In this document: piece by piece, positions 8,603 through 48,079 of the stretch
Layout: each line of letters starts with the position of its first letter
Position numbering within the stretch: the first letter of the stretch is position 1
Source: Sulfurimonas aquatica
GTDB lineage: Bacteria > Campylobacterota > Campylobacteria > Campylobacterales > Sulfurimonadaceae
Length of the DNA: 64,000 nt
Assembly: GCF_017357825.1 (NCBI RefSeq)
Contig: NZ_CP046072.1
Span: 620,001 to 684,000, forward strand
Direction: 5' to 3'
Made by a program: the position numbers and the translations under genes
Notes under the pieces: generated by a model
Seen by the model: only the letters and a program-made list of their open reading frames with translations
Told to the model about the DNA's origin: nothing
Database searches by the model: none

Positions 8603-10597
8603 ATGATAAAAAAAATAGTAATTACAAATTTATTTATGTTACTCATAGCTACATCATTATTTGGGTTAACACTTAAAGAGAGCATTATTGAAGCGATAGA
8701 TACAAATCCAGTTGTGCAAGAGAGACTTAAAAACTATAGAGCTACACAACAAGATTTAAATATAGCAGAGTCAGAGTACTATCCACAACTTGATTTGAGT
8801 GCTAGTTATAACTACAATAGAGCTGGTGAAATTAACAATGCAGTTGTAAAACAAGACTATACAAACTATGAAACAACTCTGAAGTTTACACAAAATCTCT
8901 TTGATGGTTTTTCTACAGTTCACAAGATTGATTATCAAGAAGCAAGAATTTTAGCTGCTGCTTACAACTATGTAGAAAAGTCCAATGATATAGCGTTTAA
9001 AATGACAAATGCTTATATTAGTGTAATGAGAGCACATGACCTTCTCCAAACAGCTCGTGAAAACGTTCAAATAAATAGAGATATATATACAAAAGTAAAA
9101 GATCTATTTGATTTTGGTTTAACAACAGACTCTGAAGTTAAAAAGATAGAGTCATCCCTCTCACTTGCTCGATCAAACCTTACTGTGAAAAAAAATAATG
9201 CACTTGACACTGAGTATAATTTTAGAAGAGTTTTAGGAAGAATGCCTCAAGTTCAAACGATGAGTAAACCAGAGCTAGACGTTCAACTACCAGAGAGTAT
9301 TCATAAAGCAGCTCAATATGCGGTAAATAATAACCCATCTCTTCTTGTGAGCCGTTATAACATAGAGAGTGCTCACTCACTTAGAAAACAACATCAAAAA
9401 GAGTACTATCCACGTATTGACTTTGAGGTATCTCAAACATATAACGACATAGAAGAGGCGAACGCTTTTAATAATGCTGATGATAGATTTAAAGCTAGAG
9501 TGGTATTAAACTACAATATTTTCCGTGGTGGAGCAGATGATGCGATTACACAAAAAGATTTAAGCACTATCAATCAAGAAGTCGAAATAAAAAGAGATTT
9601 AAAACGCCAAGTAATAGAAGGACTAGATCTATCTTGGAATGCTTACGAGATGATAGGTCTACAACTTGTAGATTTAAGAGAGTATCGTGAGTTTTCTGAA
9701 AAAACTTTAGAGCTCTATAAAGAGGAGTATGATTTAGGTAGAAGATCTCTACTAGACCTTCTCTCAGCTCAAAATGATGTAATAAATTCACGTACACAGA
9801 TTATTCAAGCTGAGTATGATCAGCTCTTTGCAAAATATAGAATTTTGGATGCTATGGGAGTTCTTCCTCTAGCGGTTATAGGCGATACAAAAGAGTTTAC
9901 ATCACGAGTAAACCTTTACAGTGATGGGAACTATACGGAAGTTTTAGATTCAGTTCCTGTAAGCTTAGATGTAGATAATGATAAAATAGTAGATAATCAA
10001 GATATATGTGATAACTCTTTACAAGAGAGTAGTGTAATGCCTTATGGATGTGTCCAACCTAACCCAGATAGTGATGGAGATGGTATATTTGATAGTCAAG
10101 ATGAGTGTCCACTGACTCCTCGAGATATTGCTACTGCACCAAATGGTTGTGCACTTGACACAGATATGGATGGTGTTAGTGACTATCTTGATGAGTGTAA
10201 GAAAACACCTATAGGTTATGACGTAGATTTAAAAGGATGTGCTATAGCTATAACAATCACAGTGAATTTTCCAAGAGCAAGTGCTGAAATACCGGCAGAT
10301 TTAGAAAAAAAGATTAGTGATTTCGCCCTTTTTATGCAAAATAATACGAAGTTCCATGCAAAAATTACAGGCTATACGAGTAGAACAAGTGTAAGTGAAG
10401 AGGCATATAACCTAAAACTTTCACTAGATAGAGCAGATAGTTTTAAACAAGAACTTATCAATCATGGTATAAGTGCTCATCGTTTGAGTACAGATGGAAA
10501 AGGCTACGAAAAGCCTATCGCTGATAATAATACAGACGAGGGTAGAATACTCAACCGAAGGGTTGAAATTGAGCTTACAACAATGGAAGAGTTTTAA
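8603..10597 (+). CDS. TolC-type outer-membrane channel fused to TSP3 repeats and a C-terminal OmpA domain
   Basis: This is the outer-membrane component of the type I secretion system. A signal peptide (ends near ...TSLFG) leads into two outer-membrane efflux repeats (about residues 25-430). Then come calcium-binding thrombospondin type 3-like repeats (about 455-545; DSDGDGIFDSQDECP, DTDMDGVSDYLDECK) and an OmpA/peptidoglycan-binding domain (about 550-660; VNFPRASAEIP ... RILNRRVEIEL). I prefer the second ATG at 8603 because AAGG at 8592-8595 then has 7-nt spacing; from the first ATG (8597) the spacing is 1 nt. The product is about 664 residues, far longer than a normal TolC (about 430-490), and the fusion would tie the export pore to the cell wall. 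The stop overlaps the next ATG by 1 nt. Confidence 0.88.
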   Translation: MIKKIVITNLFMLLIATSLFGLTLKESIIEAIDTNPVVQERLKNYRATQQDLNIAESEYYPQLDLSASYNYNRAGEINNAVVKQDYTNYETTLKFTQNLFDGFSTVHKIDYQEARILAAAYNYVEKSNDIAFKMTNAYISVMRAHDLLQTARENVQINRDIYTKVKDLFDFGLTTDSEVKKIESSLSLARSNLTVKKNNALDTEYNFRRVLGRMPQVQTMSKPELDVQLPESIHKAAQYAVNNNPSLLVSRYNIESAHSLRKQHQKEYYPRIDFEVSQTYNDIEEANAFNNADDRFKARVVLNYNIFRGGADDAITQKDLSTINQEVEIKRDLKRQVIEGLDLSWNAYEMIGLQLVDLREYREFSEKTLELYKEEYDLGRRSLLDLLSAQNDVINSRTQIIQAEYDQLFAKYRILDAMGVLPLAVIGDTKEFTSRVNLYSDGNYTEVLDSVPVSLDVDNDKIVDNQDICDNSLQESSVMPYGCVQPNPDSDGDGIFDSQDECPLTPRDIATAPNGCALDTDMDGVSDYLDECKKTPIGYDVDLKGCAIAITITVNFPRASAEIPADLEKKISDFALFMQNNTKFHAKITGYTSRTSVSEEAYNLKLSLDRADSFKQELINHGISAHRLSTDGKGYEKPIADNNTDEGRILNRRVEIELTTMEEF

Positions 10598-30133: not shown

Positions 30134-33100
30134 GTGACAGATAATGGAACAAACTTAGTATTTAGTATCGATGTAGCTGGTTCAGACTTAGCAGCAGATG
30201 GAGATAGAACAATTGACGCTTCAGTAACAACTACAGATGCAGCTGGAAATACAGCAACTGCAACTGATACTGAAGATTACACAGTAGATACAGCAATCAC
30301 AGCTTCAATCACACTAGATACTGAAATCACTGCTGATGATGTTATCAACGCAGCTGAATCTGGTCAAAACATTGCAATCACTGGTGTAGTTGGTGGAGAT
30401 GTTCAAGTTGGAGATACAGTTACACTTGTAATAAATAATGTTACTTCAACTGGTCTAGTGACAGATAATGGAACAAACTTAGTATTTAGTATCGATGTAG
30501 CTGGTTCAGACTTAGCAGCAGATGGAGATAGAACAATTGACGCTTCAGTAACAACTACAGATGCAGCTGGAAATACAGCAACTGCAACTGATACTGAAGA
30601 TTACACAGTAGATACAGCAATCACAGCTTCAATCACACTAGATACTGAAATCACTGCTGATGATGTTATCAACGCAGCTGAATCTGGTCAAAACATTGCA
30701 ATCACTGGTGTAGTTGGTGGAGATGTTCAAGTTGGAGATACAGTTACACTTGTAATAAATAATGTTACTTCAACTGGTCTAGTGACAGATAATGGAACAA
30801 ACTTAGTATTTAGTATCGATGTAGCTGGTTCAGACTTAGCAGCAGATGGAGATAGAACAATTGACGCTTCAGTAACAACTACAGATGCAGCTGGAAATAC
30901 AGCAACTGCAACTGATACTGAAGATTACACAGTAGATACAGCAATCACAGCTTCAATCACACTAGATACTGAAATCACTGCTGATGATGTTATCAACGCA
31001 GCTGAATCTGGTCAAAACATTGCAATCACTGGTGTAGTTGGTGGAGATGTTCAAGTTGGAGATACAGTTACACTTGTAATAAATAATGTTACTTCAACTG
31101 GTCTAGTGACAGATAATGGAACAAACTTAGTATTTAGTATCGATGTAGCTGGTTCAGACTTAGCAGCAGATGGAGATAGAACAATTGACGCTTCAGTAAC
31201 AACTACAGATGCAGCTGGAAATACAGCAACTGCAACTGATACTGAAGATTACACAGTAGATACAGCAATCACAGCTTCAATCACACTAGATACTGAAATC
31301 ACTGCTGATGATGTTATCAACGCAGCTGAATCTGGTCAAAACATTGCAATCACTGGTGTAGTTGGTGGAGATGTTCAAGTTGGAGATACAGTTACACTTG
31401 TAATAAATAATGTTACTTCAACTGGTCTAGTGACAGATAATGGAACAAACTTAGTATTTAGTATCGATGTAGCTGGTTCAGACTTAGCAGCAGATGGAGA
31501 TAGAACAATTGACGCTTCAGTAACAACTACAGATGCAGCTGGAAATACAGCAACTGCAACTGATACTGAAGATTACACAGTAGATACAGCAATCACAGCT
31601 TCAATCACACTAGATACTGAAATCACTGCTGATGATGTTATCAACGCAGCTGAATCTGGTCAAAACATTGCAATCACTGGTGTAGTTGGTGGAGATGTTC
31701 AAGTTGGAGATACAGTTACACTTGTAATAAATAATGTTACTTCAACTGGTCTAGTGACAGATAATGGAACAAACTTAGTATTTAGTATCGATGTAGCTGG
31801 TTCAGACTTAGCAGCAGATGGAGATAGAACAATTGACGCTTCAGTAACAACTACAGATGCAGCTGGAAATACAGCAACTGCAACTGATACTGAAGATTAC
31901 ACAGTAGATACAGCAATCACAGCTTCAATCACACTAGATACTGAAATCACTGCTGATGATGTTATCAACGCAGCTGAATCTGGTCAAAACATTGCAATCA
32001 CTGGTGTAGTTGGTGGAGATGTTCAAGTTGGAGATACAGTTACACTTGTAATAAATAATGTTACTTCAACTGGTCTAGTGACAGATAATGGAACAAACTT
32101 AGTATTTAGTATCGATGTAGCTGGTTCAGACTTAGCAGCAGATGGAGATAGAACAATTGACGCTTCAGTAACAACTACAGATGCAGCTGGAAATACAGCA
32201 ACTGCAACTGATACTGAAGATTACACAGTAGATACAGCAATCACAGCTTCAATCACACTAGATACTGAAATCACTGCTGATGATGTTATCAACGCAGCTG
32301 AATCTGGTCAAAACATTGCAATCACTGGTGTAGTTGGTGGAGATGTTCAAGTTGGAGATACAGTTACACTTGTAATAAATAATGTTACTTCAACTGGTCT
32401 AGTGACAGATAATGGAACAAACTTAGTATTTAGTATCGATGTAGCTGGTTCAGACTTAGCAGCAGATGGAGATAGAACAATTGACGCTTCAGTAACAACT
32501 ACAGATGCAGCTGGAAATACAGCAACTGCAACTGATACTGAAGATTACACAGTAGATACAGCAATCACAGCTTCAATCACACTAGATACTGAAATCACTG
32601 CTGATGATGTTATCAACGCAGCTGAATCTGGTCAAAACATTGCAATCACTGGTGTAGTTGGTGGAGATGTTCAAGTTGGAGATACAGTTACACTTGTAAT
32701 AAATAATGTTACTTCAACTGGTCTAGTGACAGATAATGGAACAAACTTAGTATTTAGTATCGATGTAGCTGGTTCAGACTTAGCAGCAGATGGAGATAGA
32801 ACAATTGACGCTTCAGTAACAACTACAGATGCAGCTGGAAATACAGCAACTGCAACTGATACTGAAGATTACACAGTAGATACAGCAATCACAGCTTCAA
32901 TCACACTAGATACTGAAATCACTGCTGATGATGTTATCAACGCAGCTGAATCTGGTCAAAACATTGCAATCACTGGTGTAGTTGGTGGAGATGTTCAAGT
33001 TGGAGATACAGTTACACTTGTAATAAATAATGTTACTTCAACTGGTCTAGTGACAGATAATGGAACAAACTTAGTATTTAGTATCGATGTAGCTGGTTCA

Positions 33101-36100
33101 GACTTAGCAGCAGATGGAGATAGAACAATTGACGCTTCAGTAACAACTACAGATGCAGCTGGAAATACAGCAACTGCAACTGATACTGAAGATTACACAG
33201 TAGATACAGCAATCACAGCTTCAATCACACTAGATACTGAAATCACTGCTGATGATGTTATCAACGCAGCTGAATCTGGTCAAAACATTGCAATCACTGG
33301 TGTAGTTGGTGGAGATGTTCAAGTTGGAGATACAGTTACACTTGTAATAAATAATGTTACTTCAACTGGTCTAGTGACAGATAATGGAACAAACTTAGTA
33401 TTTAGTATCGATGTAGCTGGTTCAGACTTAGCAGCAGATGGAGATAGAACAATTGACGCTTCAGTAACAACTACAGATGCAGCTGGAAATACAGCAACTG
33501 CAACTGATACTGAAGATTACACAGTAGATACAGCAATCACAGCTTCAATCACACTAGATACTGAAATCACTGCTGATGATGTTATCAACGCAGCTGAATC
33601 TGGTCAAAACATTGCAATCACTGGTGTAGTTGGTGGAGATGTTCAAGTTGGAGATACAGTTACACTTGTAATAAATAATGTTACTTCAACTGGTCTAGTG
33701 ACAGATAATGGAACAAACTTAGTATTTAGTATCGATGTAGCTGGTTCAGACTTAGCAGCAGATGGAGATAGAACAATTGACGCTTCAGTAACAACTACAG
33801 ATGCAGCTGGAAATACAGCAACTGCAACTGATACTGAAGATTACACAGTAGATACAGCAATCACAGCTTCAATCACACTAGATACTGAAATCACTGCTGA
33901 TGATGTTATCAACGCAGCTGAATCTGGTCAAAACATTGCAATCACTGGTGTAGTTGGTGGAGATGTTCAAGTTGGAGATACAGTTACACTTGTAATAAAT
34001 AATGTTACTTCAACTGGTCTAGTGACAGATAATGGAACAAACTTAGTATTTAGTATCGATGTAGCTGGTTCAGACTTAGCAGCAGATGGAGATAGAACAA
34101 TTGACGCTTCAGTAACAACTACAGATGCAGCTGGAAATACAGCAACTGCAACTGATACTGAAGATTACACAGTAGATACAGCAATCACAGCTTCAATCAC
34201 ACTAGATACTGAAATCACTGCTGATGATGTTATCAACGCAGCTGAATCTGGTCAAAACATTGCAATCACTGGTGTAGTTGGTGGAGATGTTCAAGTTGGA
34301 GATACAGTTACACTTGTAATAAATAATGTTACTTCAACTGGTCTAGTGACAGATAATGGAACAAACTTAGTATTTAGTATCGATGTAGCTGGTTCAGACT
34401 TAGCAGCAGATGGAGATAGAACAATTGACGCTTCAGTAACAACTACAGATGCAGCTGGAAATACAGCAACTGCAACTGATACTGAAGATTACACAGTAGA
34501 TACAGCAATCACAGCTTCAATCACACTAGATACTGAAATCACTGCTGATGATGTTATCAACGCAGCTGAATCTGGTCAAAACATTGCAATCACTGGTGTA
34601 GTTGGTGGAGATGTTCAAGTTGGAGATACAGTTACACTTGTAATAAATAATGTTACTTCAACTGGTCTAGTGACAGATAATGGAACAAACTTAGTATTTA
34701 GTATCGATGTAGCTGGTTCAGACTTAGCAGCAGATGGAGATAGAACAATTGACGCTTCAGTAACAACTACAGATGCAGCTGGAAATACAGCAACTGCAAC
34801 TGATACTGAAGATTACACAGTAGATACAGCAATCACAGCTTCAATCACACTAGATACTGAAATCACTGCTGATGATGTTATCAACGCAGCTGAATCTGGT
34901 CAAAACATTGCAATCACTGGTGTAGTTGGTGGAGATGTTCAAGTTGGAGATACAGTTACACTTGTAATAAATAATGTTACTTCAACTGGTCTAGTGACAG
35001 ATAATGGAACAAACTTAGTATTTAGTATCGATGTAGCTGGTTCAGACTTAGCAGCAGATGGAGATAGAACAATTGACGCTTCAGTAACAACTACAGATGC
35101 AGCTGGAAATACAGCAACTGCAACTGATACTGAAGATTACACAGTAGATACAGCAATCACAGCTTCAATCACACTAGATACTGAAATCACTGCTGATGAT
35201 GTTATCAACGCAGCTGAATCTGGTCAAAACATTGCAATCACTGGTGTAGTTGGTGGAGATGTTCAAGTTGGAGATACAGTTACACTTGTAATAAATAATG
35301 TTACTTCAACTGGTCTAGTGACAGATAATGGAACAAACTTAGTATTTAGTATCGATGTAGCTGGTTCAGACTTAGCAGCAGATGGAGATAGAACAATTGA
35401 CGCTTCAGTAACAACTACAGATGCAGCTGGAAATACAGCAACTGCAACTGATACTGAAGATTACACAGTAGATACAGCAATCACAGCTTCAATCACACTA
35501 GATACTGAAATCACTGCTGATGATGTTATCAACGCAGCTGAATCTGGTCAAAACATTGCAATCACTGGTGTAGTTGGTGGAGATGTTCAAGTTGGAGATA
35601 CAGTTACACTTGTAATAAATAATGTTACTTCAACTGGTCTAGTGACAGATAATGGAACAAACTTAGTATTTAGTATCGATGTAGCTGGTTCAGACTTAGC
35701 AGCAGATGGAGATAGAACAATTGACGCTTCAGTAACAACTACAGATGCAGCTGGAAATACAGCAACTGCAACTGATACTGAAGATTACACAGTAGATACA
35801 GCAATCACAGCTTCAATCACACTAGATACTGAAATCACTGCTGATGATGTTATCAACGCAGCTGAATCTGGTCAAAACATTGCAATCACTGGTGTAGTTG
35901 GTGGAGATGTTCAAGTTGGAGATACAGTTACACTTGTAATAAATAATGTTACTTCAACTGGTCTAGTGACAGATAATGGAACAAACTTAGTATTTAGTAT
36001 CGATGTAGCTGGTTCAGACTTAGCAGCAGATGGAGATAGAACAATTGACGCTTCAGTAACAACTACAGATGCAGCTGGAAATACAGCAACTGCAACTGAT

Positions 36101-39100
36101 ACTGAAGATTACACAGGTAATTTGGCACCAGTAGCAGTAGATGATTCAATCACAGTCGATGAAGATACACCATTTACTTCTACAATTGATTTAGATGCAA
36201 ACGATACAAATTTAGATGGAGATGCATTAAGTGTAACGCCAGGTACTTTTACAACAGCTCAAGGCGGAACTTTAGTTCTAGCAGCTGATGGATCTTACAC
36301 TTATACACCAGCAGCTAACTTCAATGGAATTGATACAGTTGATTACACAGTAACTGATGGTTCACTAACAGATGTAGGTACTTTAACAATTAATGTAACA
36401 CCAGTAAATGATGCACCTGTAGCAGTAGATGATTCAATCACAATTGGTGAAGATACACCATTTACTTCAACTGTAGATTTAGATTTCAATGATACAGACT
36501 TAGATGGAGATGCATTAAGTGTAACGCCAGGTACTTTTACAACAGCTCAAGGCGGAACTTTAGTTCTAGCAGCTGATGGATCTTACACTTATACACCAGC
36601 AGCTAACTTCAATGGAATTGATACAGTTGATTACACAGTAACTGATGGTTCACTAACAGATGTAGGTACTTTAACAATTAATGTAACACCAGTAAATGAT
36701 GCACCTGTAGCAGTAGATGATTCAATCACAATTGATGAAGATACACCATTTACTTCAACTGTAGATTTAGATTTCAATGATACAGACTTAGATGGAGATG
36801 CGTTAAGTGTAACGCCAGGTACTTTTACAACAGCTCAAGGCGGAACTTTAGTTCTAGCAGCTGATGGATCTTACACTTATACACCAGCAGCTAACTTCAA
36901 TGGAGTTGATACAGTTGATTACACAGTAACTGATGGTTCACTAACAGATGTAGGTACTTTAACAATTAATGTAACACCAGTAAATGATGCCCCTGAAGCA
37001 GTAGATGGATTTGCAAGAGTTTCTGAAGAGGGACTTTTCAATGGTATAGTCGATACTACTGGTGAAAATCCTGGAGATGACACTACTGATTCAGCTGTTA
37101 TGACAGGAACGATGTCTTTTAGTGATGTTGAAGGTGATGTATTGAGTGTTTCACTCTCTAATCCAACTCAAACTCTTACTTCTGGTGGAGCAACTGTAAC
37201 ATGGAGTGGAGCTGGCAGTGACACTTTAACAGGTTCAGCAAACGGTACTGATGTTATTACTATAAATGTGACAAACACAGGTGCATATACAGTAACTCTT
37301 TTGGATGCAGTTGATCATCCTACTAACTCAGTTGAAGATATTTTAGCATTAGATTTTAATGTAGCAGTTACGGATAGTGTAGACACTACGAATGTAAACT
37401 TAAATGTAATCATAGAAGATGATATGGCCATAAGTGGAAATATCGTTCAGGATATTGAAATTCCTGAACAAAATACAAACTTGATGTTTATAGTAGATAC
37501 TTCTGGAAGTATGGGTTGGGATGCCGATACTGGTTCAACTACGATTACTACAGTGGAGAGAATGGAACTACTTCTTACATCTATGAAAGATGTAATTAAC
37601 TCATATGATGATATGGGTAATGTAAAAATACAAATTACTACTTTTAATAGCGGTGAGTCTACACACCAAAATCACTGGTTTACAGTTACTGAAGCCTTAG
37701 AATTTATAGGAGATGGAACTGCTGCTACTCGTGATATTAGTTTAACACCAGGTGGTGGAACTAACTATGATGAAGCAGTTGCAGAAGCTGAAATTGGTTA
37801 TCTAGTAGATGGTAAAATAGAAGCGACAGCAGAGATAGAAGTGGCAAACATAACTTACTTCTTCTCTGATGGTCAACCTCAAACTGCTGGTGGTACTGAA
37901 GGTACAGATGGAATTACTGGTGTTGAGATAACTGAATGGACTGACTTTTTAGAAGCAAATGATATTAGTGCCTATGGCGTTGGATTTGGATCTGGCTTGA
38001 CTGCGGCTGATCAAGCTTTTCTTGATCCATTAGCTTATGATGGATTAAATGAAGTTGAACGTGATGGTGTTATCGTTACGGATTCAACAACATTAGCAGA
38101 AACTTTACTTGGAACAATCCAGCCTCCACTTGTTGGAAATGTTCTTGGCCAGTTAGGTAGTGATGGATTTGGTGCAGATGGTGGATATTTCCAAGATATC
38201 ACAATAGATGGAGTACTTTATACATACAATGTAGCATCTGATACTATTACAAATGATGCAGATGCAAATGTAATAGCTGGAAGCCAACTCGAACTAGATA
38301 CTTTACAGCTAGGACATATCTCACTTAACTTTGCTACAGGAGCATATGTTTACTCCCCAGATGTACGCTTAGCACAAGGTGATACAAAACAAGAAGTTTT
38401 TGATTTTACAGCAGTTGATAATGATGGAGATACATCTACAGGTGTGGTTACGTTAAATATTAATCGTGCTGCAGAAGAGATTCCAGTTCTTAATTCGAAT
38501 GTAGATGAAGTTTATGAGTCAGCATTAGATACTGGAACAGATAGTACAAGTACGGCAGAAATCACGACTGGTAATATTCTCGCAAATGACACACTACCAC
38601 TTGGATCAGCTCTTACTAATGCTACTATAGCAGGTGGTACAACAGATACTTCAGTAGCCGGAGAAATTACAGTTACAACAAAAGAGGGTAATGTTCTAGT
38701 AATAGATACAACAACAGGTGATTACACATATACACTTGTTAATGCAGTTGATCATTATACTTACAATGAGCTATTAGCAGCTATTAATGTTAATCAAACA
38801 TTCAGTGCTGGATTAGAAGGGTGGTCAGGAACTAATGTAATCAATAATGCAGGTAAAATGCTTATTGATGGTGGTGGAAACACTGCTAGTCAAACTTTTG
38901 ATTTTGGAGCTGCATATGCAGGTAAAACTGTTACAGTATCATTTGACTTTGAAGCAGTTGGAGTTTGGGATGGTGGTAATGATAACTTTGTTGTTACAGC
39001 TAATACAGATACAATTAGTGATATAGCATATTTTGATGGAGAAGCTCACTATGATTTTGATGTTGTTTTAGATACAAATGGACGAGTATCAATAGATCTT

Positions 39101-40627
39101 TTAAATAGTAGTGGTTGGAATCAAGAAGATGCACTAATAGACAATTTTTCTATTCAAGCACCAGCAGAAACAGAAATCTCAGGACTTGCAGATAATGTAA
39201 TGGATAGTTTTGTATACACTGTGACAGATTTAGCGGGTTATAATTATACAGGTGGTTTAGATGTGACAATTCATGATGATGCACCAACGGCAACACCACA
39301 AGACGTTACTTTAACAATTGAACCAGTAACAACAAACATCTCAGTTATAGTAGATGTCTCTTCAAGTATGAGTGATTCAGATTTAGCATTAACAGAACAA
39401 GCAATAGAGACAATGATTAATAAGTACGAATCTATGGGAAGTGTAAACGTTAATATAGTTCAGTTTTATGGAAATGGAAAGATTCAAAGTGGTTGGCTAG
39501 ATGCTGATGCAGGTAGAGCACTTACTTTAGATACTACACGAAGTGGTACAGACATTGAGCAAGGTCTTCGTGAAGTAGTAGAGAACTCGTACGGAACTCT
39601 ATATACTCCAACACTTGCAGCTGCAGATCAAGATGTAATGTACTTCTTTGGAGATGGTAATACATACGACGCTTATAAAACAGATTTTGATGCATATTTA
39701 CCAACTTGGAATAGTTTTGTAGACTCTGGGGCTATTGATAAGCTATTTAGTTATAGTGTAAATACAACAAGTGTTTTAAGTGATATAGTAAAAGTCGCAG
39801 ATAATGGTGAAAACGTTGTTTCTCAGGATGCTGAAAATATCTCTAATATAGCTCAGCTTAGTACTGCAGTTAGTTCAACTGCTGCACTTTATACTGAAGG
39901 TAGCTTTACATCAGATGCAAGCGGTAACACTATAATCGACTTTGGTGCAGATGGTGGACATATTGAGTCAGTTACTATCGGAGCGAATACAGTTACATAT
40001 GATGCTGTTAATGTAGTTCAAACTATTTCTGGAACACATGGAGATTTTGAAATTAACTTTGAAACTGGTAGTTATAGATATATACCAACAGATAGAGTAG
40101 CAACTACAGAAACTATTGAAGCTTCAATTGTTGATAACGATGGGGACTCTTTAAATACGATTTTACTTGATATAAACATAGAATACTCTGCAGTGTTTAA
40201 CGATACTCTAACATATGATGGAGTTGCTCAATTAGATGGAGAAGCTGGCTTTGATACTGTTGTGATGGATGCTGGAATAACTCTTGATGCTGGAACTACT
40301 TTAGACTATACTAAACTAGATAATATTGAAAAAATTGACTTGAGTGCTAGTGGAGATCATCAGATTACGAATTTATCACTTGATGATGTCTTAAGCATTA
40401 CAGACTCAAACAATACTCTGCAAATCATAGGCGATGGTGATGGAAACCCTATAATTGGACTTGATGAAGATAATGTGGCTACAGTAGACACAACTGGTTG
40501 GGATAGAGTAAATGGGACAGGAGTTTCAGATGGAACATCTACAACATATGAGTATGTAAAATCGGATGGTTCAGGTGATAGTATTAAATTGATTGTAGAA
40601 GATCAAATAGATAATACAGGCTTATAA
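30134..40627 (+). CDS. Giant adhesin, C-terminal part as assembled (3497 residues)
   Basis: The apparent GTG start is an internal repeat codon without a ribosome site, so this is the continuation of the gene begun at 16002. It covers the rest of one unit plus 18 repeats, then three cadherin-like repeats (36125-36988), an Ig-like segment, VWA domain 1 with MIDAS motif DTSGS at 37496-37510, a T1SS-associated domain ([14 protein letters not shown]... about 38160-38480), a jelly-roll-like region (about 38800-39150), VWA domain 2 with DVSSS at 39353-39367, and a C-terminal region (about 40190-40624) of the type I secretion target kind. It ends at TAA, 4 bp before a strong terminator stem. The VWA domains suggest protein or metal-dependent ligand binding at the distal tip. 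Confidence 0.88.
36125..36988 (+). repeat. Three near-identical 288-bp cadherin-like repeats
   Basis: Units begin at 36125, 36413 and 36701, each 288 bp (96 residues), starting [10 protein letters not shown] and containing the tandem-95/cadherin-like signature [21 protein letters not shown]. They differ at only a few bases (for example isoleucine versus valine in the NFNGxDTVDY segment, and DANDTN versus DFNDTD). They mark a second, smaller recent duplication beside the 324-bp array. Confidence 0.9.
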
Positions 40628-41492: not shown

Positions 41493-41705
41493 ATGAGAGA
41501 CTTTCATGCCATTATTAAAGTATTAAAACTTCATTTAAGCGGAGCAAAAGAGGTAAAAGTGTTAGACAAAGACGTCGCTTCTTTACTAGATATATCTCAG
41601 TCTAAATTTGCCACAATAAAAAAACGAAACGTGACACCCTATGAAAATATTTTAGAGTTTTGTAAACGCGAGGAGCTCTGCTGTAGTGAGATTTTTTTTG
41701 ATTAG
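41493..41705 (+). CDS. Small HTH protein resembling the N-terminus of phage CI-type repressors
   Basis: This 70-residue protein has a predicted helix-turn-helix around residues 26-50 (VASLLDISQSKFATIKKRN), followed by VTPYENILEFCKRE. This resembles the DNA-binding domain of CI-like repressors without the C-terminal peptidase/dimerisation domain. Two adjacent cysteines (CC) lie near the end. It is probably a compact transcription factor. Its stop overlaps the dnaX stop by 4 nt on the opposite strand. No phage genes lie nearby, so it appears to be a resident regulator. Confidence 0.7.
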   Translation: MRDFHAIIKVLKLHLSGAKEVKVLDKDVASLLDISQSKFATIKKRNVTPYENILEFCKREELCCSEIFFD

Positions 41706-43543
41706 ATTTTTGACTGGACCGTTATCTTTTTAGCTTCAAACATCTCTATAGCTTTTTGAATAAGAGGCTCTTGCGTTATATCTGTGCCGTTTAACTCTTC
41801 TAGCGGTGCCGCGTCATTACAGTTTGTAACGCAGCTCGCGTTTCCACCCATCTCCGCATCTTCTATCATTGTAGTACTTTGAGGACCTTGCATCTCTGGC
41901 TGCGTTATAGCAGTTGGCTGAGGAGCGGGTTGTTCTATGTTTGTTTGAGTAAATTCAGGAGTGCTTACAAAAGTCTCTTCTGGTATATACGTCTCTTGAG
42001 GTTCATTCTCTGGAAGATTTTGTGGCTCTTTAGTGCAAGCAATTCCTTTGATTTTTGTCTCAAAACTAAATATCTCTCGTACAAGTTGCTTAATAACAGA
42101 GTATCCATGCTTGAGAAGTTTTTTACAATCTTCATCCGCACAACTCTCCCATGTTAAAACACTCTCTTCATAAGAGATAAAAGTAATATTTTTAGTAAAA
42201 CACTCACCAAGTTCATAGTTTCTATCGCTAATTTTTGCTATAAGCTCATGAAATAGTTTTAGAGCGGGGTCTTCTTGAATTATAGGAGCTACGACAGGTT
42301 CCACTATAGGCTCGGGAGCAGGAGGCACTTCTTCAACTGCTTGAGTGGTAACTTCTTTCTCTTCTTCTGTTTTAGTCTCTATTGGAGAATCCGCCTGAAC
42401 TGCTGACGCTATTTCGGGAGTAGCCGTTTGGATTTTTATTTTGGCTGGAGTTGGAGTCGTTATTTCTGGTCTTTGAACGTCTTTTTGAAAAGACTCTATC
42501 ATCTGGTCTATTTCACGAATACGAAGAGCTTCGATCATCTTAAAGAAAATCATAGAGAGCACAAAAGAGCCATCGGCGTTTATACTAAAGAGATATTTTG
42601 AATCACTTAAAATTCTAAAAAATCTATCTAAAACTAAAGTTGAGAAGAGTGCGTCGTGGTTATACATCTTATCTTTTAGGTAAGCTATAAGCTCATCTAC
42701 TACCATCTCACTCTCATAATCTTCAAGTACTTTTGTATACTCAACTAACGCAGCGTAATCTTTGGCAAATACTGCGTTAAAAAGTTCGCCAATGAACTTA
42801 GGGTCAACTAATCCTAGCATATCTGTAACGGTGCGAACGTCTACGTGATTTTTAGAGTAAATGATGGCTTGATCTAAAAGAGTAAGCGTATCGCGAAGAC
42901 TCCCTCCACCACTACGAGCCAAAATCTCTAAGGCGTCATTTTCATAAGCTATACCTTCAAGATTTAATATATGCGCTAAATGATCGATGACTTTATTTGT
43001 AGCGATGCTTTTAAATCTAAAGTGCTGCGTTCTACTTAAAATAGTGGCTGGAAGTTTTAGTGGGTCAGTCGTTGCAAGTATAAACTTTACATACTCTGGT
43101 GGCTCTTCTAGCGTTTTTAAAAGGGCGTTAAAAGCCTCTTTTGTAAGCATATGCACTTCATCGATAATAAATATTTTATATCTTGCAACGGCAGGTTTAT
43201 ACTTTGTCTGCTCAACTAAATCACGGATGTCGTCTATCTTACGACTACTCGCACCATCCATCTCAATGATGTCCATATGACGGCCTTCTAACGCCATAAC
43301 ACAGTTGGAACAAACGCCACAAGGGTGATGACTCATTCCTTCTTCGCAGATAAGAGCTTTAGCGAAAATACGAGCGGTAGAAGTTTTACCACTCCCTCTT
43401 AAACCTGAAAAAAGGTAAGCGTGTGAGAGTCTATTTGAATCAAGCGCAAGTGATAGCGTTTGAGCTATAGTCTCTTGACCTATAAGCTCATCGAAATTTG
43501 AGGGGCGATATTTTCTAGCTAAAACTTCTGATGACTCTTTCAA
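41702..43543 (-). CDS. dnaX: DNA polymerase III subunit gamma/tau
   Basis: This clamp-loader ATPase has 613 residues. Walker A GLRGSGKT is at residues 47-54, zinc-binding cysteines at 66, 75, 78 and 81 (CGVCSNC pattern), Walker B DEVH, sensor 1 region LATTDPLKLP and SRTQHF, giving a complete AAA+ and domain III region to about residue 360. The C-terminal part is Pro/Glu/Thr-rich linker with a weakly conserved tail. The start is TTG (complement of 43541-43543), supported by GGAG 8 nt upstream; I see no in-frame ATG with a better site. It is divergent from murL, with 76 nt between. Confidence 0.95.
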   Translation of the reverse strand: MKESSEVLARKYRPSNFDELIGQETIAQTLSLALDSNRLSHAYLFSGLRGSGKTSTARIFAKALICEEGMSHHPCGVCSNCVMALEGRHMDIIEMDGASSRKIDDIRDLVEQTKYKPAVARYKIFIIDEVHMLTKEAFNALLKTLEEPPEYVKFILATTDPLKLPATILSRTQHFRFKSIATNKVIDHLAHILNLEGIAYENDALEILARSGGGSLRDTLTLLDQAIIYSKNHVDVRTVTDMLGLVDPKFIGELFNAVFAKDYAALVEYTKVLEDYESEMVVDELIAYLKDKMYNHDALFSTLVLDRFFRILSDSKYLFSINADGSFVLSMIFFKMIEALRIREIDQMIESFQKDVQRPEITTPTPAKIKIQTATPEIASAVQADSPIETKTEEEKEVTTQAVEEVPPAPEPIVEPVVAPIIQEDPALKLFHELIAKISDRNYELGECFTKNITFISYEESVLTWESCADEDCKKLLKHGYSVIKQLVREIFSFETKIKGIACTKEPQNLPENEPQETYIPEETFVSTPEFTQTNIEQPAPQPTAITQPEMQGPQSTTMIEDAEMGGNASCVTNCNDAAPLEELNGTDITQEPLIQKAIEMFEAKKITVQSKI

Positions 43544-43619: not shown

Positions 43620-44984
43620 ATGAAAATGGCTAAAATGAAAAAATTTAATGAGTTACGAGAACAAAATAATAAGTTTGTATACAAGAGCTACGGCACATTA
43701 GAAAATGAGCAAACTATTTCTCTTCATTTTCACTATCAACTTATTGAATCAGACAAAATAAACGATTTTCATCACAAACTCTCACTCAATAAAAATGACA
43801 AAATATCTACTGATTTAGATTTCTCAAATATTATATTTCATATAGGAATGGCGGAAGCAATTAGCTACTATAAAATAGCTACTCCTAAAGAGTTTATTAT
43901 AGAGTGTGGAACTTTAAATGATGAGCAGCAAGCATGGTTTAAAAAGCTCTACTACAACGGTCTTGGCGAGTTTATTTACTTAAATAACATAGCGGTTACT
44001 CAAGATGAACTTCTGAAGTTTGTCATCGCGTTTAATGGAGATGATTTTAAAGAGATAAAAGTTGCTACGCAAGAGAATAACATCATTCCTATTGGTGGTG
44101 GAAAAGATTCTCTTGTCTCTTATGAGCTTTTAAAAGATGAGTTTCCAGAGTCACTAATGTTCTCTATGAATCCAATAGTGGCAAGTAAAGCCATACTCGA
44201 TAAGCATCCAGATAACTCTATAGAACTTAAACGCGAACTTGATTTAGAGAAGATTCTTGATTTTAATAAACGCGGATATTTAAATGGTCACATACCATTC
44301 TCTTCTATCGTTGGTTTTATCTCCATTTGGTTAGGTCTTATTTATAAGACAAAGTATATAGTACTCTCAAATGAGTCAAGTGCAAATGAAGAAAATATCA
44401 TTTTTAATGGACTAAAAGTAAATCATCAGTACTCAAAATCTGTGGAGTTTGAGAATGATTTTAGATTTTACGTATCTTCATTTATAACTAAAGACGTAGA
44501 GTATTTTAGCTTTTTACGCCCACTCGATGAGATTCATATAGCAAAGCTTTTCTCACAGACTAAAGAGCATTTCTTTACTTTTAGAAGTTGTAACGTTGGA
44601 AGTAAACGAAATGAGTGGTGTGGCAAATGCCCGAAGTGTCTTTTTACCTACATCATGCTTTGCAATTTTATAGAAGATGAAACACTACATAAGATATTTG
44701 ACAAGGATATGCTTGATGATAGTGAGCTTCAAGAGCTTTTTGACGGGCTTAGCAAAAGTGATGAAGTAAAACCTTTTGAGTGTGTAGGAACATATGATGA
44801 AGTAAACTATGCTTTGAGTAAAAAAAGAGCGACATACACTCAAGATAAACTTCCTTTTTTACTTAAAAATTATAAGCCGGTAGATATTCACTATGGTCTA
44901 GAAGTGGCATTTAATGGTGAAAATAATCTTCCTAAAAAATTTAAAGAGATACTAAAAGCAAATGTTGAAAAACTTAGTTTCTGA
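43620..44984 (+). CDS. murL: UDP-MurNAc-L-Ala-L-Glu epimerase (MurL-like)
   Basis: MurL converts the L-Glu of UDP-MurNAc-L-Ala-L-Glu to D-Glu in an ATP-dependent step, as described for Xanthomonas. This 454-residue protein has a PP-loop-like GGGKDS at residues 159-164, LSNESSANEEN around 258-268 and a Cys cluster C334-x2-C337-x2-C340 (CGKCPKC). All fit the MurL pattern I recall. It overlaps the murD-like gene by 23 nt, which is strong functional support. Three in-frame starts (43620, 43626, 43635) lie close together with no clear ribosome site; the first is kept. The alternative reading is a general PP-loop ATPase of unknown function. Confidence 0.8.
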   Translation: MKMAKMKKFNELREQNNKFVYKSYGTLENEQTISLHFHYQLIESDKINDFHHKLSLNKNDKISTDLDFSNIIFHIGMAEAISYYKIATPKEFIIECGTLNDEQQAWFKKLYYNGLGEFIYLNNIAVTQDELLKFVIAFNGDDFKEIKVATQENNIIPIGGGKDSLVSYELLKDEFPESLMFSMNPIVASKAILDKHPDNSIELKRELDLEKILDFNKRGYLNGHIPFSSIVGFISIWLGLIYKTKYIVLSNESSANEENIIFNGLKVNHQYSKSVEFENDFRFYVSSFITKDVEYFSFLRPLDEIHIAKLFSQTKEHFFTFRSCNVGSKRNEWCGKCPKCLFTYIMLCNFIEDETLHKIFDKDMLDDSELQELFDGLSKSDEVKPFECVGTYDEVNYALSKKRATYTQDKLPFLLKNYKPVDIHYGLEVAFNGENNLPKKFKEILKANVEKLSF

Positions 44985-46269
44985 TTTAGCGGCTTTTAGT
45001 CGTATAGCGATATTTGGCTTTGGAAAAGAGGGGAGGTCGTTTTATGATTTCGCTCTTAAATATTTGCCAAACGCCACCCTATGTATAGTCGATAAAAACA
45101 CGCCTCAGGATATAGAAGAGAGTGAGAAGGTAGTTTTTTTTAGTGGAGATGATTATCTAAAAGGCTTAGAAAAAGTTGACTTAGTTATAAAATCACCAGG
45201 TGTTTCACTTTATAATCTTGGCATAAAGTATGACGCATATAACTTTAGTTCGACTACTGAACTCTTTATAAAACACTTTAAAAAGCAGATTATTGGTGTA
45301 ACTGGAACAAAGGGCAAGAGTACTCTTGTAACGATTATAGACCAACTTCTTAAAAATGCAAAACAAGAGACTGTTTTATGCGGAAACATTGGGACGCCAG
45401 CGTTTGATATAGTCCAAGAGATTACTCCTACAACTAGAGTTGTGATGGAACTCTCTTCGCACCAACTCTTAAATATAAAACACTCTCCTCACATAGCAAT
45501 TTTGACAAATCTATTTGAAGAACATCTGGATTACTATAAAGACCTACAAGAGTATTATGACGCAAAGTTTAATATCTTGCATTTTCAAAATGAGAATGAC
45601 ATTTTGATAGTGAATTTACAAGAACCATATAAAGAGTTAAACGCAAGTTTATTTCAAACAAAGAGCGTCTACAACGTTTTTGAACATACTCTAAAATATG
45701 ATGTAACTTTTGACGTAAAGCAGGGCTTTATTCACAAAAGTTCTTTACAGATTCTAGAAAAACTAGTAGAGTTGTTAAAGATAGATAAAGAGACATACTT
45801 AAAGACAATTAAAGAGTTTAAAACGCTTCCTCATAGGCTGGAGTATGTAGATACCATAGAGGGCGTTATATATATTAATGACTCGATATCAACAATTCCA
45901 GAAGCTACCATGGAAGCAGTTAAAATATTAAAAAACGTTGAGAGCTTAATATTAGGTGGATTTGATAGAGGGATACACTATGATTCTTTGGTAGAATACT
46001 TGCTTGAATCAGATATTCAAAATATTGTACTTTTCTCAGATACTGGAAAAAAAATATTTGAAAGTCTAAGTAAAAGTGATAAAAATTTAAATATATTTTA
46101 TGTAACTTCATTAAGCCAAGCTGTTGAAAAAGTTCATCAGATAACAGAGTCCGGCATAGCTCTTTTTTCTCCAGCCGCGTCAAGTTTTAACGAGTACAAA
46201 AACTTTATGCAACGCGGCGATGAGTTTAAAAGCCTTGTAATAGACTATAAACAACAAGAGGAAAAATAG
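44962..46269 (+). CDS. murD2: UDP-N-acetylmuramoyl-L-alanine--L-glutamate ligase (MurD2-like Mur ligase)
   Basis: This 435-residue cytoplasmic Mur ligase joins glutamate to UDP-MurNAc-L-Ala. The N-terminal Rossmann part begins IAIFGFGKEGRSFYDF. Walker A GVTGTKGKST is at residues 112-121, followed by MELSSHQL and LTNLFEEHLDYY of the central domain, LPHRLEYV (interdomain) and the C-terminal GGFDRGIHYDSL. Ordinary MurD uses D-Glu. The tight coupling to murL suggests the MurD2 form that takes L-Glu and hands it to the epimerase. Substrate stereochemistry cannot be read from the sequence directly. The next ATG follows immediately with zero spacing. Confidence 0.82.
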   Translation: MLKNLVSDLAAFSRIAIFGFGKEGRSFYDFALKYLPNATLCIVDKNTPQDIEESEKVVFFSGDDYLKGLEKVDLVIKSPGVSLYNLGIKYDAYNFSSTTELFIKHFKKQIIGVTGTKGKSTLVTIIDQLLKNAKQETVLCGNIGTPAFDIVQEITPTTRVVMELSSHQLLNIKHSPHIAILTNLFEEHLDYYKDLQEYYDAKFNILHFQNENDILIVNLQEPYKELNASLFQTKSVYNVFEHTLKYDVTFDVKQGFIHKSSLQILEKLVELLKIDKETYLKTIKEFKTLPHRLEYVDTIEGVIYINDSISTIPEATMEAVKILKNVESLILGGFDRGIHYDSLVEYLLESDIQNIVLFSDTGKKIFESLSKSDKNLNIFYVTSLSQAVEKVHQITESGIALFSPAASSFNEYKNFMQRGDEFKSLVIDYKQQEEK

Positions 46270-46707
46270 ATGGATAAAAAACAAGATTTGTTTGGAAGTA
46301 AAGAAGACATATTTGAGACTATGACATATAGACTCAAGAGCTCAAAAAAGATAGAAGACCTTGTAGAGAGTATACAAAAAGCATGTGATTCAAACAAGTT
46401 TTCATTACTTCATAGTTATGACTACAATGCCTTACTAAAGTCTAAGGGCTTCCCTATAGAGAGAAAGGCCTATGTATATGAGGTATGTCAGGCAAAAGTT
46501 GCTTCGGATGTTTTAAGACTAGAGCCAATGTTCACGCCATTTATGCCGTGTAGAATCGCTTTGTATGAAGAGGGTGAAAATGTGGAAGTGTCAACTCAAA
46601 ATTTAGATTTATTGATAAGTAGTTTAAAAGAAGGTAGCGAGCTTCATAAGACTATGTCTACAATGTTCTCAACTCTTAAGTTAATTATGGCGGAGATAAT
46701 AGAGTAG
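46270..46707 (+). CDS. DUF302-domain protein
   Basis: This 145-residue protein has a DUF302-like core: the middle segment KVASDVLRLEPMFTPFMPCRIALYEE followed by a beta strand (VEVSTQN) and a long C-terminal helix matches the family. The biochemical role of DUF302 is not established. There is no signal peptide. It starts at the base after the murD2 stop, so it is part of that operon, and it ends 7 nt before the convergent rho gene. A cell-wall role is only a guess from its neighbours. Confidence 0.75.
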   Translation: MDKKQDLFGSKEDIFETMTYRLKSSKKIEDLVESIQKACDSNKFSLLHSYDYNALLKSKGFPIERKAYVYEVCQAKVASDVLRLEPMFTPFMPCRIALYEEGENVEVSTQNLDLLISSLKEGSELHKTMSTMFSTLKLIMAEIIE

Positions 46708-46714
46708 AGTTACT

Positions 46715-48079
46715 CTATTTATCTGTGTTCATACTCTCTAGGAACTCTTCGTTCGTAGGTTTTTTACGCATAGTGTTATAAACAAATTTAAGCGCTTCGA
46801 CTTCATTGTCTTGTTTATGAATCATCTGACGAAGTATAAATACTTTTTGTAAATCAAGCTTACCAATAAGTAACTCATCTTTACGAGTACCAGATTTAAG
46901 AATGTCAATAGCGGGAAATATTCTTCTATCTGCAATTTTTCTATCAAGAACAACTTCCATATTACCAGTACCTTTGAACTCTTCAAAGATAACTTCATCC
47001 ATACGGCTACCAGTATCAACAAGCGCAGTTGCTATAATAGTTAAACTTCCGCCATTTTCGATGTTACGAGCAGCTCCAAAGAAGCGTTTTGGTTTGTGAA
47101 GAGCATTCGCGTCAACGCCACCTGAGAGTACTTTACCACTTGATGGCGTTACCGTGTTATAAGCACGCGCAAGACGAGTGATAGAGTCAAGAAGTATAAC
47201 TACGTCACGACCCATTTCAACGCGACGTTTTGCTTTTTCTATAACCATCTCAGCAACTTTAACATGGTTTTTCGCTGGCATATCAAAAGTAGAAGAGTAA
47301 ACTTCACCCTTAACGCTACGTTCCATATCTGTAACCTCTTCTGGTCTCTCATCAACAAGTAAAACTAGTAGGTCAATTTCAGCATGGTTTGCAGAAATAC
47401 CATGTGCTATCTCTTTAAGAAGCTCAGTTTTACCTGAACGAGGAGGTGCAACAATAAGACCACGTTGTCCTTTACCAATAGGAGAGAAAAGATCAAGCAT
47501 ACGGCCAGTTAAACCTTTTTCTCTATACTCTAGTTTAATTCTCTCTTCTGGATAAAGAGGAGTAAGGTTTTCAAAAAGTGGACGTTTTTTAGACTCTTCT
47601 GGAGGAAGACCATTAACCGCTTCTATCTTTATAAGTGCATAGTAGCGTTCTTGATCTTTTGGAGGGCGTACCTGACCAGTTACAACGTCACCATTTCTAA
47701 GTGCAAAGCGTTTGATTTGAGTATTTGAAACATAAGCGTCATTGATAGACTCGTTAAAACTTTTGTCAATCGAGCGGATAAAACCATAACCATCTTGCAT
47801 AATCTCAAGGATTCCACTAAAGAGGATAAAACCACCTTGCTCAGTTTGAGCCTTAAGAATTTCAAAGATAACGTCTTGGCGTTTAAGCTCTTGTGGATGC
47901 TCTACATTTAACTCTTCAGCTATGTTAATAAGCTCTTCAATACTTTTAGTACGTAAGTCTTCTACACTTGATCCTTTAACCGGAGTATGTGTTCTAGATT
48001 TTGAGTTGTTTTTATTGTTTGATTTTGGATTTGTAGGTTTAGAGTTGTTACGAGGTTGTTGTGAATTGTTATCACTCAT
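46715..48079 (-). CDS. rho: Transcription termination factor Rho
   Basis: Rho is the hexameric RNA helicase that ends transcription. At 454 residues it is a little longer than the E. coli protein because of an Asn/Ser/Lys-rich leader (residues 1-35). The Rho N-terminal domain follows (about 38-80), then the cold-shock-like RNA-binding domain (about 83-155, GYGFIRS motif) and the ATPase with Walker A APPRSGKT at 211-218. The Q- and R-loop regions are typical ([26 protein letters not shown]). Promoter elements lie about 130-170 nt upstream, leaving a leader that could carry autoregulation as in other bacteria. Confidence 0.97.

Follow-up and report, generated by a model that had tools for sequence, protein, structure and literature searches.

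A murL-murD2 gene pair at the murI site of Sulfurimonas, a probable alternative route of D-glutamate into peptidoglycan

In Xanthomonas, the ligase MurD2 adds L-glutamate to the peptidoglycan precursor and the epimerase MurL subsequently inverts it. Both reactions have been published, together with the conversion of ATP to AMP and the one-way action; according to a review, the authors who described MurL noted the AMP and the single direction and proposed that the glutamate carboxylate is adenylated. MurL was described in 2021 as being without known conserved domains. As far as its distribution is summarized in two reviews, it is known from Gamma- and Alphaproteobacteria and actinobacteria, and more distantly similar proteins are named from cyanobacteria, an amoeba and a fungus; the sections concerned do not mention Campylobacterota. 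In the open-access literature (subscription journals were mostly outside the scope of the search), no paper was found that deals with MurL in Campylobacterota, Sulfurimonas included, or that connects MurL with QueC.

The stretch of DNA analysed here (the window) comprises 64,000 nucleotides of Sulfurimonas aquatica (contig NZ_CP046072.1, positions 620,001 to 684,000). Like Xanthomonas oryzae (MurD2-MurL, XOO_1320 and XOO_1319, as given in PMC8788868), it carries adjacent murL and murD-like genes in a genome without MurI. This pair is very probably the organism's route of D-glutamate into peptidoglycan, in place of murI; on the observational side stand the genes themselves, the lack of both murI and a second murD, the mutual exclusion of murL and murI, a residue signature in the ligase, a shared chromosomal site and a fold match. 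An alternative D-glutamate route had already been suggested in a preliminary description of the locus, and the MurL match, the lack of MurI, the single MurD and the ligase residues support it.

The murL-murD2 pair and its ligase residues

The murL gene (43620-44984, + strand; ORF of 454 aa) and murD2 (44962-46269, + strand; ORF of 435 aa) share 23 nt (44962-44984). The preliminary description had reported this overlap between a MurD-type ligase and a MurL-like ORF, the motifs GGGKDS and CGKCPKC in the upstream protein, and the resemblance of that protein to MurL; each of these points is confirmed. A profile search aligned the murL ORF with the NCBIfam model NF041275 (MurL) over residues 40-411 (E-value 8.4e-73, 245 bits). 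The cut-off of this model, which is named for Xanthomonadales, is 700 bits, and the shortfall argues against membership of the Xanthomonadales subfamily, not against homology. In the sequence and in a 69-row alignment, GGGKDS (residues 159-164; 44094-44111, + strand) is the PP-loop (ATP-binding) motif, and CGKCPKC (residues 334-340) lies within a four-cysteine site, C324-x9-C334-xx-C337-xx-C340 (44589-44639, + strand). A Pfam search returned DUF6395 on residues 321-371 (E-value 0.0099), under that family's cut-off. The murD2 ORF reaches 295 bits against TIGR01087 (MurD; cut-off 212) and is thus a MurD-type ligase.

The residues of Xanthomonas MurD2 are used here as quoted in a review (PMC8788868), which equates D182 and K348 of Escherichia coli MurD with Glu197 and Arg358 of Xanthomonas MurD2. 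According to the same source, the E197D/R358K exchange converts Xanthomonas MurD2 to a D-Glu ligase, K319T makes E. coli MurD accept L-Glu, mutants of Phe435 in Xanthomonas MurD2 show that this place is not decisive, and Streptococcus mutans MurD has Arg at the K348 place yet uses D-Glu. In an alignment of 93 rows (E. coli numbering following PMC8788868), the window MurD2 carries, all on the + strand, Glu187 at the D182 place (45520-45522), Ile309 at the K319 place (45886-45888), Arg336 at the K348 place (45967-45969) and Phe409 at the L416 place (46186-46188), the last corresponding to Phe435 in Xanthomonas.

Glu, Ile and Arg at places 182, 319 and 348, together with Phe at 416, were found in all 10 ligases encoded beside murL in the family and in 13/13 named Sulfurimonadaceae rows, five of which are genomes already among these ten. 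The ligases of murI-positive relatives have Asp, Lys, Lys and Leu at the same places in 20 of 20 cases (19 rows plus L036, which fell under the score threshold of the 93-row alignment and was aligned separately). Among 50 MurL-linked ligases from outside the Sulfurimonadaceae, place 182 is Glu in 42 and Asp in 8, and Ile at 319 and Arg at 348 occur in 48 each; one such ligase (L137) has Asp, Tyr and Lys. Arg at the K348 place is uninformative when taken alone, since it is shared by S. mutans MurD and by the solved MurD 3lk7, where it stands together with Lys at the K319 place. Nearly all MurL-linked ligases have Ile at the K319 place, which agrees with what K319T is reported to do in E. coli MurD and offers a direct mutagenesis handle on the choice of enantiomer. 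As judged from these alignments, the window ligase is a probable MurD2 carrying the Xanthomonas-type L-Glu residue signature.

In a MurD tree (83 rows, rooted on E. coli and accompanied by long-branch warnings; the tree omits L116, L036 and 9 of the 13 named Sulfurimonas rows), the Sulfurimonas MurD2 grouped with MurL-linked ligases from elsewhere (SH-aLRT 95) and was separated from the genus's canonical MurD (100). An origin of murD2 as an altered local murD was rejected in view of the 27% identity and the separate clade. These results also bear on a rival explanation, namely that MurL racemizes free glutamate while its neighbour is an ordinary D-Glu ligase. This would also account for the missing murI, but it is highly improbable given that Xanthomonas MurL is stated in a review to be without free-glutamate racemase activity, that the window ligase differs from the D-Glu ligases of its genus at the enantiomer-setting residues, and that it groups with MurL-linked ligases in the tree. 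The preferred reading is incorporation of L-Glu, probably followed by its inversion.

Sources of D-glutamate in Campylobacterota and beyond

MurI is generally assumed to be the source of D-Glu in Campylobacterota. In the genome containing the window (2.845 Mb in 2 contigs; completeness 99.99%, contamination 4.22%), no glutamate racemase match to PF01177 or TIGR00067 was found at an E-value of ≤0.001; as controls, both models were positive in 10 of 14 genomes. TIGR01087 gave five matches, of which only the window ligase exceeded the cut-off, so a second MurD above this cut-off is absent from the genome. The search for murI and another murD, which had been suggested along with the preliminary description, returned no murI match and no further murD above the cut-off. 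The models searched for D-Glu sources were TIGR00067 (in the 10 murL-positive genomes), PF01177 (in the window genome) and TIGR01121. The D-amino-acid aminotransferase model had a single match in the window genome (130 bits, cut-off 277), and all 10 murL-positive genomes have such an aminotransferase-like match (121-130 bits against 277).

MurL was identified in 10 of 151 family genomes, the window genome included (9 Sulfurimonas and 1 of another genus; 63-75% identity). A MurD-like ORF follows murL in 10/10 of them (with the 23-nt overlap in the window pair), and the pair is therefore not a chance reading. MurI was found in none of these 10 genomes, single-contig ones (G053, G117 and G138) included, versus 20 of 20 murL-negative genomes, taken from the 141 of the family (Fisher p 3e-8, a statistic that ignores kinship). 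One MurD at an E-value of ≤1e-40 is present in 29 of the 30 genomes, beside murL in the murL-positive ones, and in the thirtieth (G117) a MurD-like ORF adjoins murL.

In 397 Campylobacterota genomes drawn, MurL was present in 5 and a MurI match in 382 (356 above the cut-off); of the 15 genomes without a MurI match, 5 are those with MurL and 10 lack it. The expectation, voiced in the preliminary description, that the locus would change the accepted view of D-Glu synthesis in such bacteria holds for a subset only (5/397), as MurI matches prevail in the phylum at large (382/397). Nine of the 10 genomes lacking both MurI and MurL (G173, G205, G281, G291, G312, G339, G343, G431 and G461) have an aminotransferase match of 235-279 bits, above the cut-off of 277 in two, which suggests, at the level of sequence matches, a third D-Glu route in Campylobacterota. 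The tenth, G487, has a weak aminotransferase match only, and either its D-Glu source is unexplained or the genome has a gap. The genus labelled g39 has mostly weak MurI matches. By gene content, Campylobacterota would hence have three D-Glu routes: MurI, MurL-MurD2 and probably the aminotransferase.

Another enzyme that escaped recognition might also make D-Glu in the murL-positive genomes, leaving the pair to serve something else; candidates are a D-amino-acid aminotransferase, an unknown racemase or a promiscuous DapF, which is reportedly the D-Glu source in Chlamydia. The aminotransferase-like match in all 10 of these genomes could be read in this way, and a racemase beyond the reach of TIGR00067 and PF01177 may exist. 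However, a match of the same weak size recurs in 9 of the 10 genomes lacking MurI and MurL (eight of which also have a far stronger one) and so looks like a general paralog, no other MurD above the cut-off is available to use free D-Glu, and the presence of the pair tracks the loss of murI at the same site. We therefore consider a separate D-Glu source very unlikely, and murL-murD2 as the route itself the better reading.

A contig scan with the Sulfurimonas MurL alignment yielded at least 80 loci, among which 14 are Sulfurimonadaceae-like and one belongs to another Campylobacterales. The rest come chiefly from Clostridia and Bacteroidales, with a few candidate phyla and Alphaproteobacteria (31-49% identity). 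A MurD-like frame accompanies MurL in 50 of the 66 listed loci outside the Sulfurimonadaceae, several of the remaining loci being partial, and in three cases MurL and MurD are fused in one frame: L085 (3887-6700, 937 aa), L122 (3959-6754, 931 aa) and L135 (4001-6631, 876 aa). MurI above the cut-off was found in 0/42 genomes with MurL loci outside the phylum (covering 42 of the 66 loci), seven of which have a match under the cut-off. The MurL of the uncultured Campylobacterales (L144, 4001-5299) shows 49% identity and reaches 241 bits against NF041275; its 9.3-kb locus showed no MurD-like frame, and a search of its genome gave no match to MurI.

The rho-dnaX site and its history

The pair is flanked in the window by dnaX on the left (41702-43543, - strand; NF006280, 773 bits) and rho on the right (46715-48079, - strand; TIGR00767, 675 bits). 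All nine murL-positive Sulfurimonas have the order dnaX, murL, murD2, rho, with extra genes interspersed in some, and murL-murD2 lies on the strand opposite to both flanks. In the murL-positive genome of the other genus (G009), the pair and rho are on separate contigs. In all 20 murI-positive relatives murI is located downstream of rho on the same strand (with one intervening ORF in G019), and in 18 of them dnaX follows rho-murI inside the fetched stretch (on the opposite strand in G087), the stretch ending before dnaX in G064 and G069. Thus, murL-murD2 is a swap in place of murI at the rho-dnaX site. That the genome is decayed or incomplete, with murI missing from the data only and the pair making a side product such as a secondary glycopeptide, is barely credible: despite the 2 contigs and the contamination of 4.22%, completeness is 99.99%, murI is absent from 10/10 murL-positive genomes, several of them in 1-2 contigs (G053, G117 and G138 in one), and the murI site is present and filled by murL-murD2.

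Four of the 20 murI-positive genomes (G019, G059, G079 and G091) have murD between murI and dnaX; this move of murD to the side of murI, between rho and dnaX, is seen in the Sulfurimonas loci L183, L184, L189 and L204. In the other 16, murD is preceded by an ORF of 353-386 aa, which was MraY in the two that were tested. As murI and murD are all that four relatives have retained between rho and dnaX, the two were perhaps replaced in one stroke in some lineages.

A gene for a DUF302 protein of 145 aa (46270-46707, + strand; Pfam search) lies directly behind murD2. It is probably incidental, as relatives have a thioredoxin-like gene or nothing at that place: a 109-aa frame directly follows murD2 in 7 of the 9 murL-positive Sulfurimonas (L190, at 8979-9308, G039, G053, G117, G138, G146 and G148), and both frames tested were thioredoxin-like. 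Elsewhere in the window, a 3497-aa frame (30134-40627) consists mostly of many near-identical repeats of about 100 aa with a differing tail, and looks like a large surface adhesin.

A rho+dnaX tree unites the 9 murL-positive genomes with the 4 murI-murD genomes in a single clade (100/98), within which the murL-positive ones are not one group. Their monophyly, and with it plain vertical descent of MurL from a single gain in Sulfurimonas, was rejected on rho+dnaX (AU p 0.00028), and the nine rows as one group were also rejected on rpoB (p 0.018). Because the flanking genes rho and dnaX could have been swapped along with the site, rpoB is the better witness. The rpoB tree unites the other 16 murI-positive genomes in one group (97/99); a single clade of the 13 murL-positive and murI-murD genomes is absent from the best tree and is compatible with the rpoB data (p 0.254). 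In both trees the closest partner of the window genome is G019, one of the murI-murD genomes (support 99/97 on rho+dnaX, 86/75 on rpoB). The MurL proteins of the Sulfurimonadaceae constitute one group (99), near one Campylobacterales and one Gracilibacteria row (98). We read this as one or more uptakes of murL-murD2, as a unit, from an outside source, followed by replacement of murI at rho-dnaX; recombination between relatives, repeated gain or reversion may each have had a part in the later history.

The predicted fold of MurL, its mechanism and the comparison with known systems

A structural model of MurL built from 69 rows had a pLDDT of 93.6 and a pTM of 0.93; a first model from 10 close rows (pLDDT 66.9) was set aside. 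A Foldseek search with the model placed QueC first (2pg3, E-value 1.1e-4; 3bl5, 9.3e-4). With VIA-align, the model (residues 15-417) matched QatC over 322 residues (Z 18.7, rmsd 3.7), QueC with Z 13.4 and 12.8 and Cap9 with Z 12.1, the next unrelated row having 8.5. QueC carries SGGxDS and a zinc-binding C(x)8CxxCxxC site, as excerpted from PMC13329287, and QatC is outlined in PMC13279940 as a QueC core plus N- and C-terminal extensions. The GGGKDS and C(x)9CxxCxxC of MurL are nearly the same as the motifs of the QueC family, with a putative metal site in MurL. Across the 69 rows there is no variation at residues G160-S164 (including K162, D163 and S164) or at any of the four cysteines, and G159 is nearly invariant.

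By sequence alone the link to QueC is weak. MurL had no match to Pfam QueC (PF06508) at an E-value of ≤1 and is therefore linked to QueC by its fold and left outside PF06508; a PADLOC search gave nothing at ≤10. Against the PDB, the single sequence retrieved rows at chance level only, and profile matches were confined to the PP-loop stretch, in TtuA and other proteins (E-value 0.0019 and worse). Comparison by hhalign with E. coli QueC and with 7 QueC rows gave probabilities of 2.8% and 8.7%; both alignments were short and weak, one covering the four cysteines and the other the PP-loop.

According to this model, the QatC/QueC fold together with the invariant PP-loop and cysteines likely explains the known need of MurL for ATP, and the fold match makes the adenylation proposed by the authors who described MurL likely. 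Most likely, if the Xanthomonas activities apply here, L-Glu would be built in first and flipped afterwards, with MurL using ATP to convert the terminal L-Glu to D-Glu and thereby yielding the substrate of MurE. The PP-loop would bind ATP, and the alpha-carboxylate of L-Glu would be adenylated in the manner of QueC, which is described as converting a carboxylate with ATP. The activated ester may then acidify the C-alpha proton, which a base would remove and which would be returned on the opposite face; H224, H269 and K273 are candidates, chosen among invariant residues only. Hydrolysis of the adenylate would make the epimerization one-way, and the four cysteines would hold a structural metal, probably zinc. 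The fold thus provides MurL with a testable mechanism. We lean, with some reserve, towards the combined view that one carboxylate-adenylating scaffold of the QueC/QatC type is used for cell-wall stereochemistry as well as for tRNA modification and defence against phages, and that the murL-murD2 module replaced murI at one site within one genus, repeatedly or with reversion.

The pathway itself is already known; the novelty lies in the phylum, in the predicted fold of MurL and in a clean exchange between the pair and murI that involves a single site in a single genus. With close relatives on either side, the exchange in Sulfurimonas is a natural experiment on swapping an essential cell-wall step, and if the swap did occur more than once or was reverted, the D-Glu step would be an exchangeable module.

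Compared with X. oryzae, whose MurL is homologous to that of the window over residues 40-411, the ligases agree at both specificity places (Glu and Arg) and in having Phe at the L416 place, as far as the Xanthomonas residues are quoted, and at the A414 place the window MurD2 has Ser where the Xanthomonas enzyme is given with Pro. The window pair also differs in its phylum (Campylobacterota), in its rho-dnaX site and in a MurL that scores far under the cut-off of the Xanthomonadales model. QatC (qatABCD defence), Cap9 (type IV CBASS) and QueC (queuosine) have in common with the predicted MurL the fold, and MurL has an SGGxDS-like PP-loop and a similar C(x)nCxxCxxC site; the identity is 9-17%, and MurL would epimerize a glycopeptide instead of forming a nitrile or modifying a protein. 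The canonical MurI and MurD of murI-positive Sulfurimonas (rho-murI, or rho-murI-murD-dnaX in 4/20) occupy the same chromosomal place and pathway step as murL-murD2, although MurI is a racemase unrelated to MurL and the window ligase shows only 27% identity to L042, the canonical Sulfurimonas MurD used for comparison.
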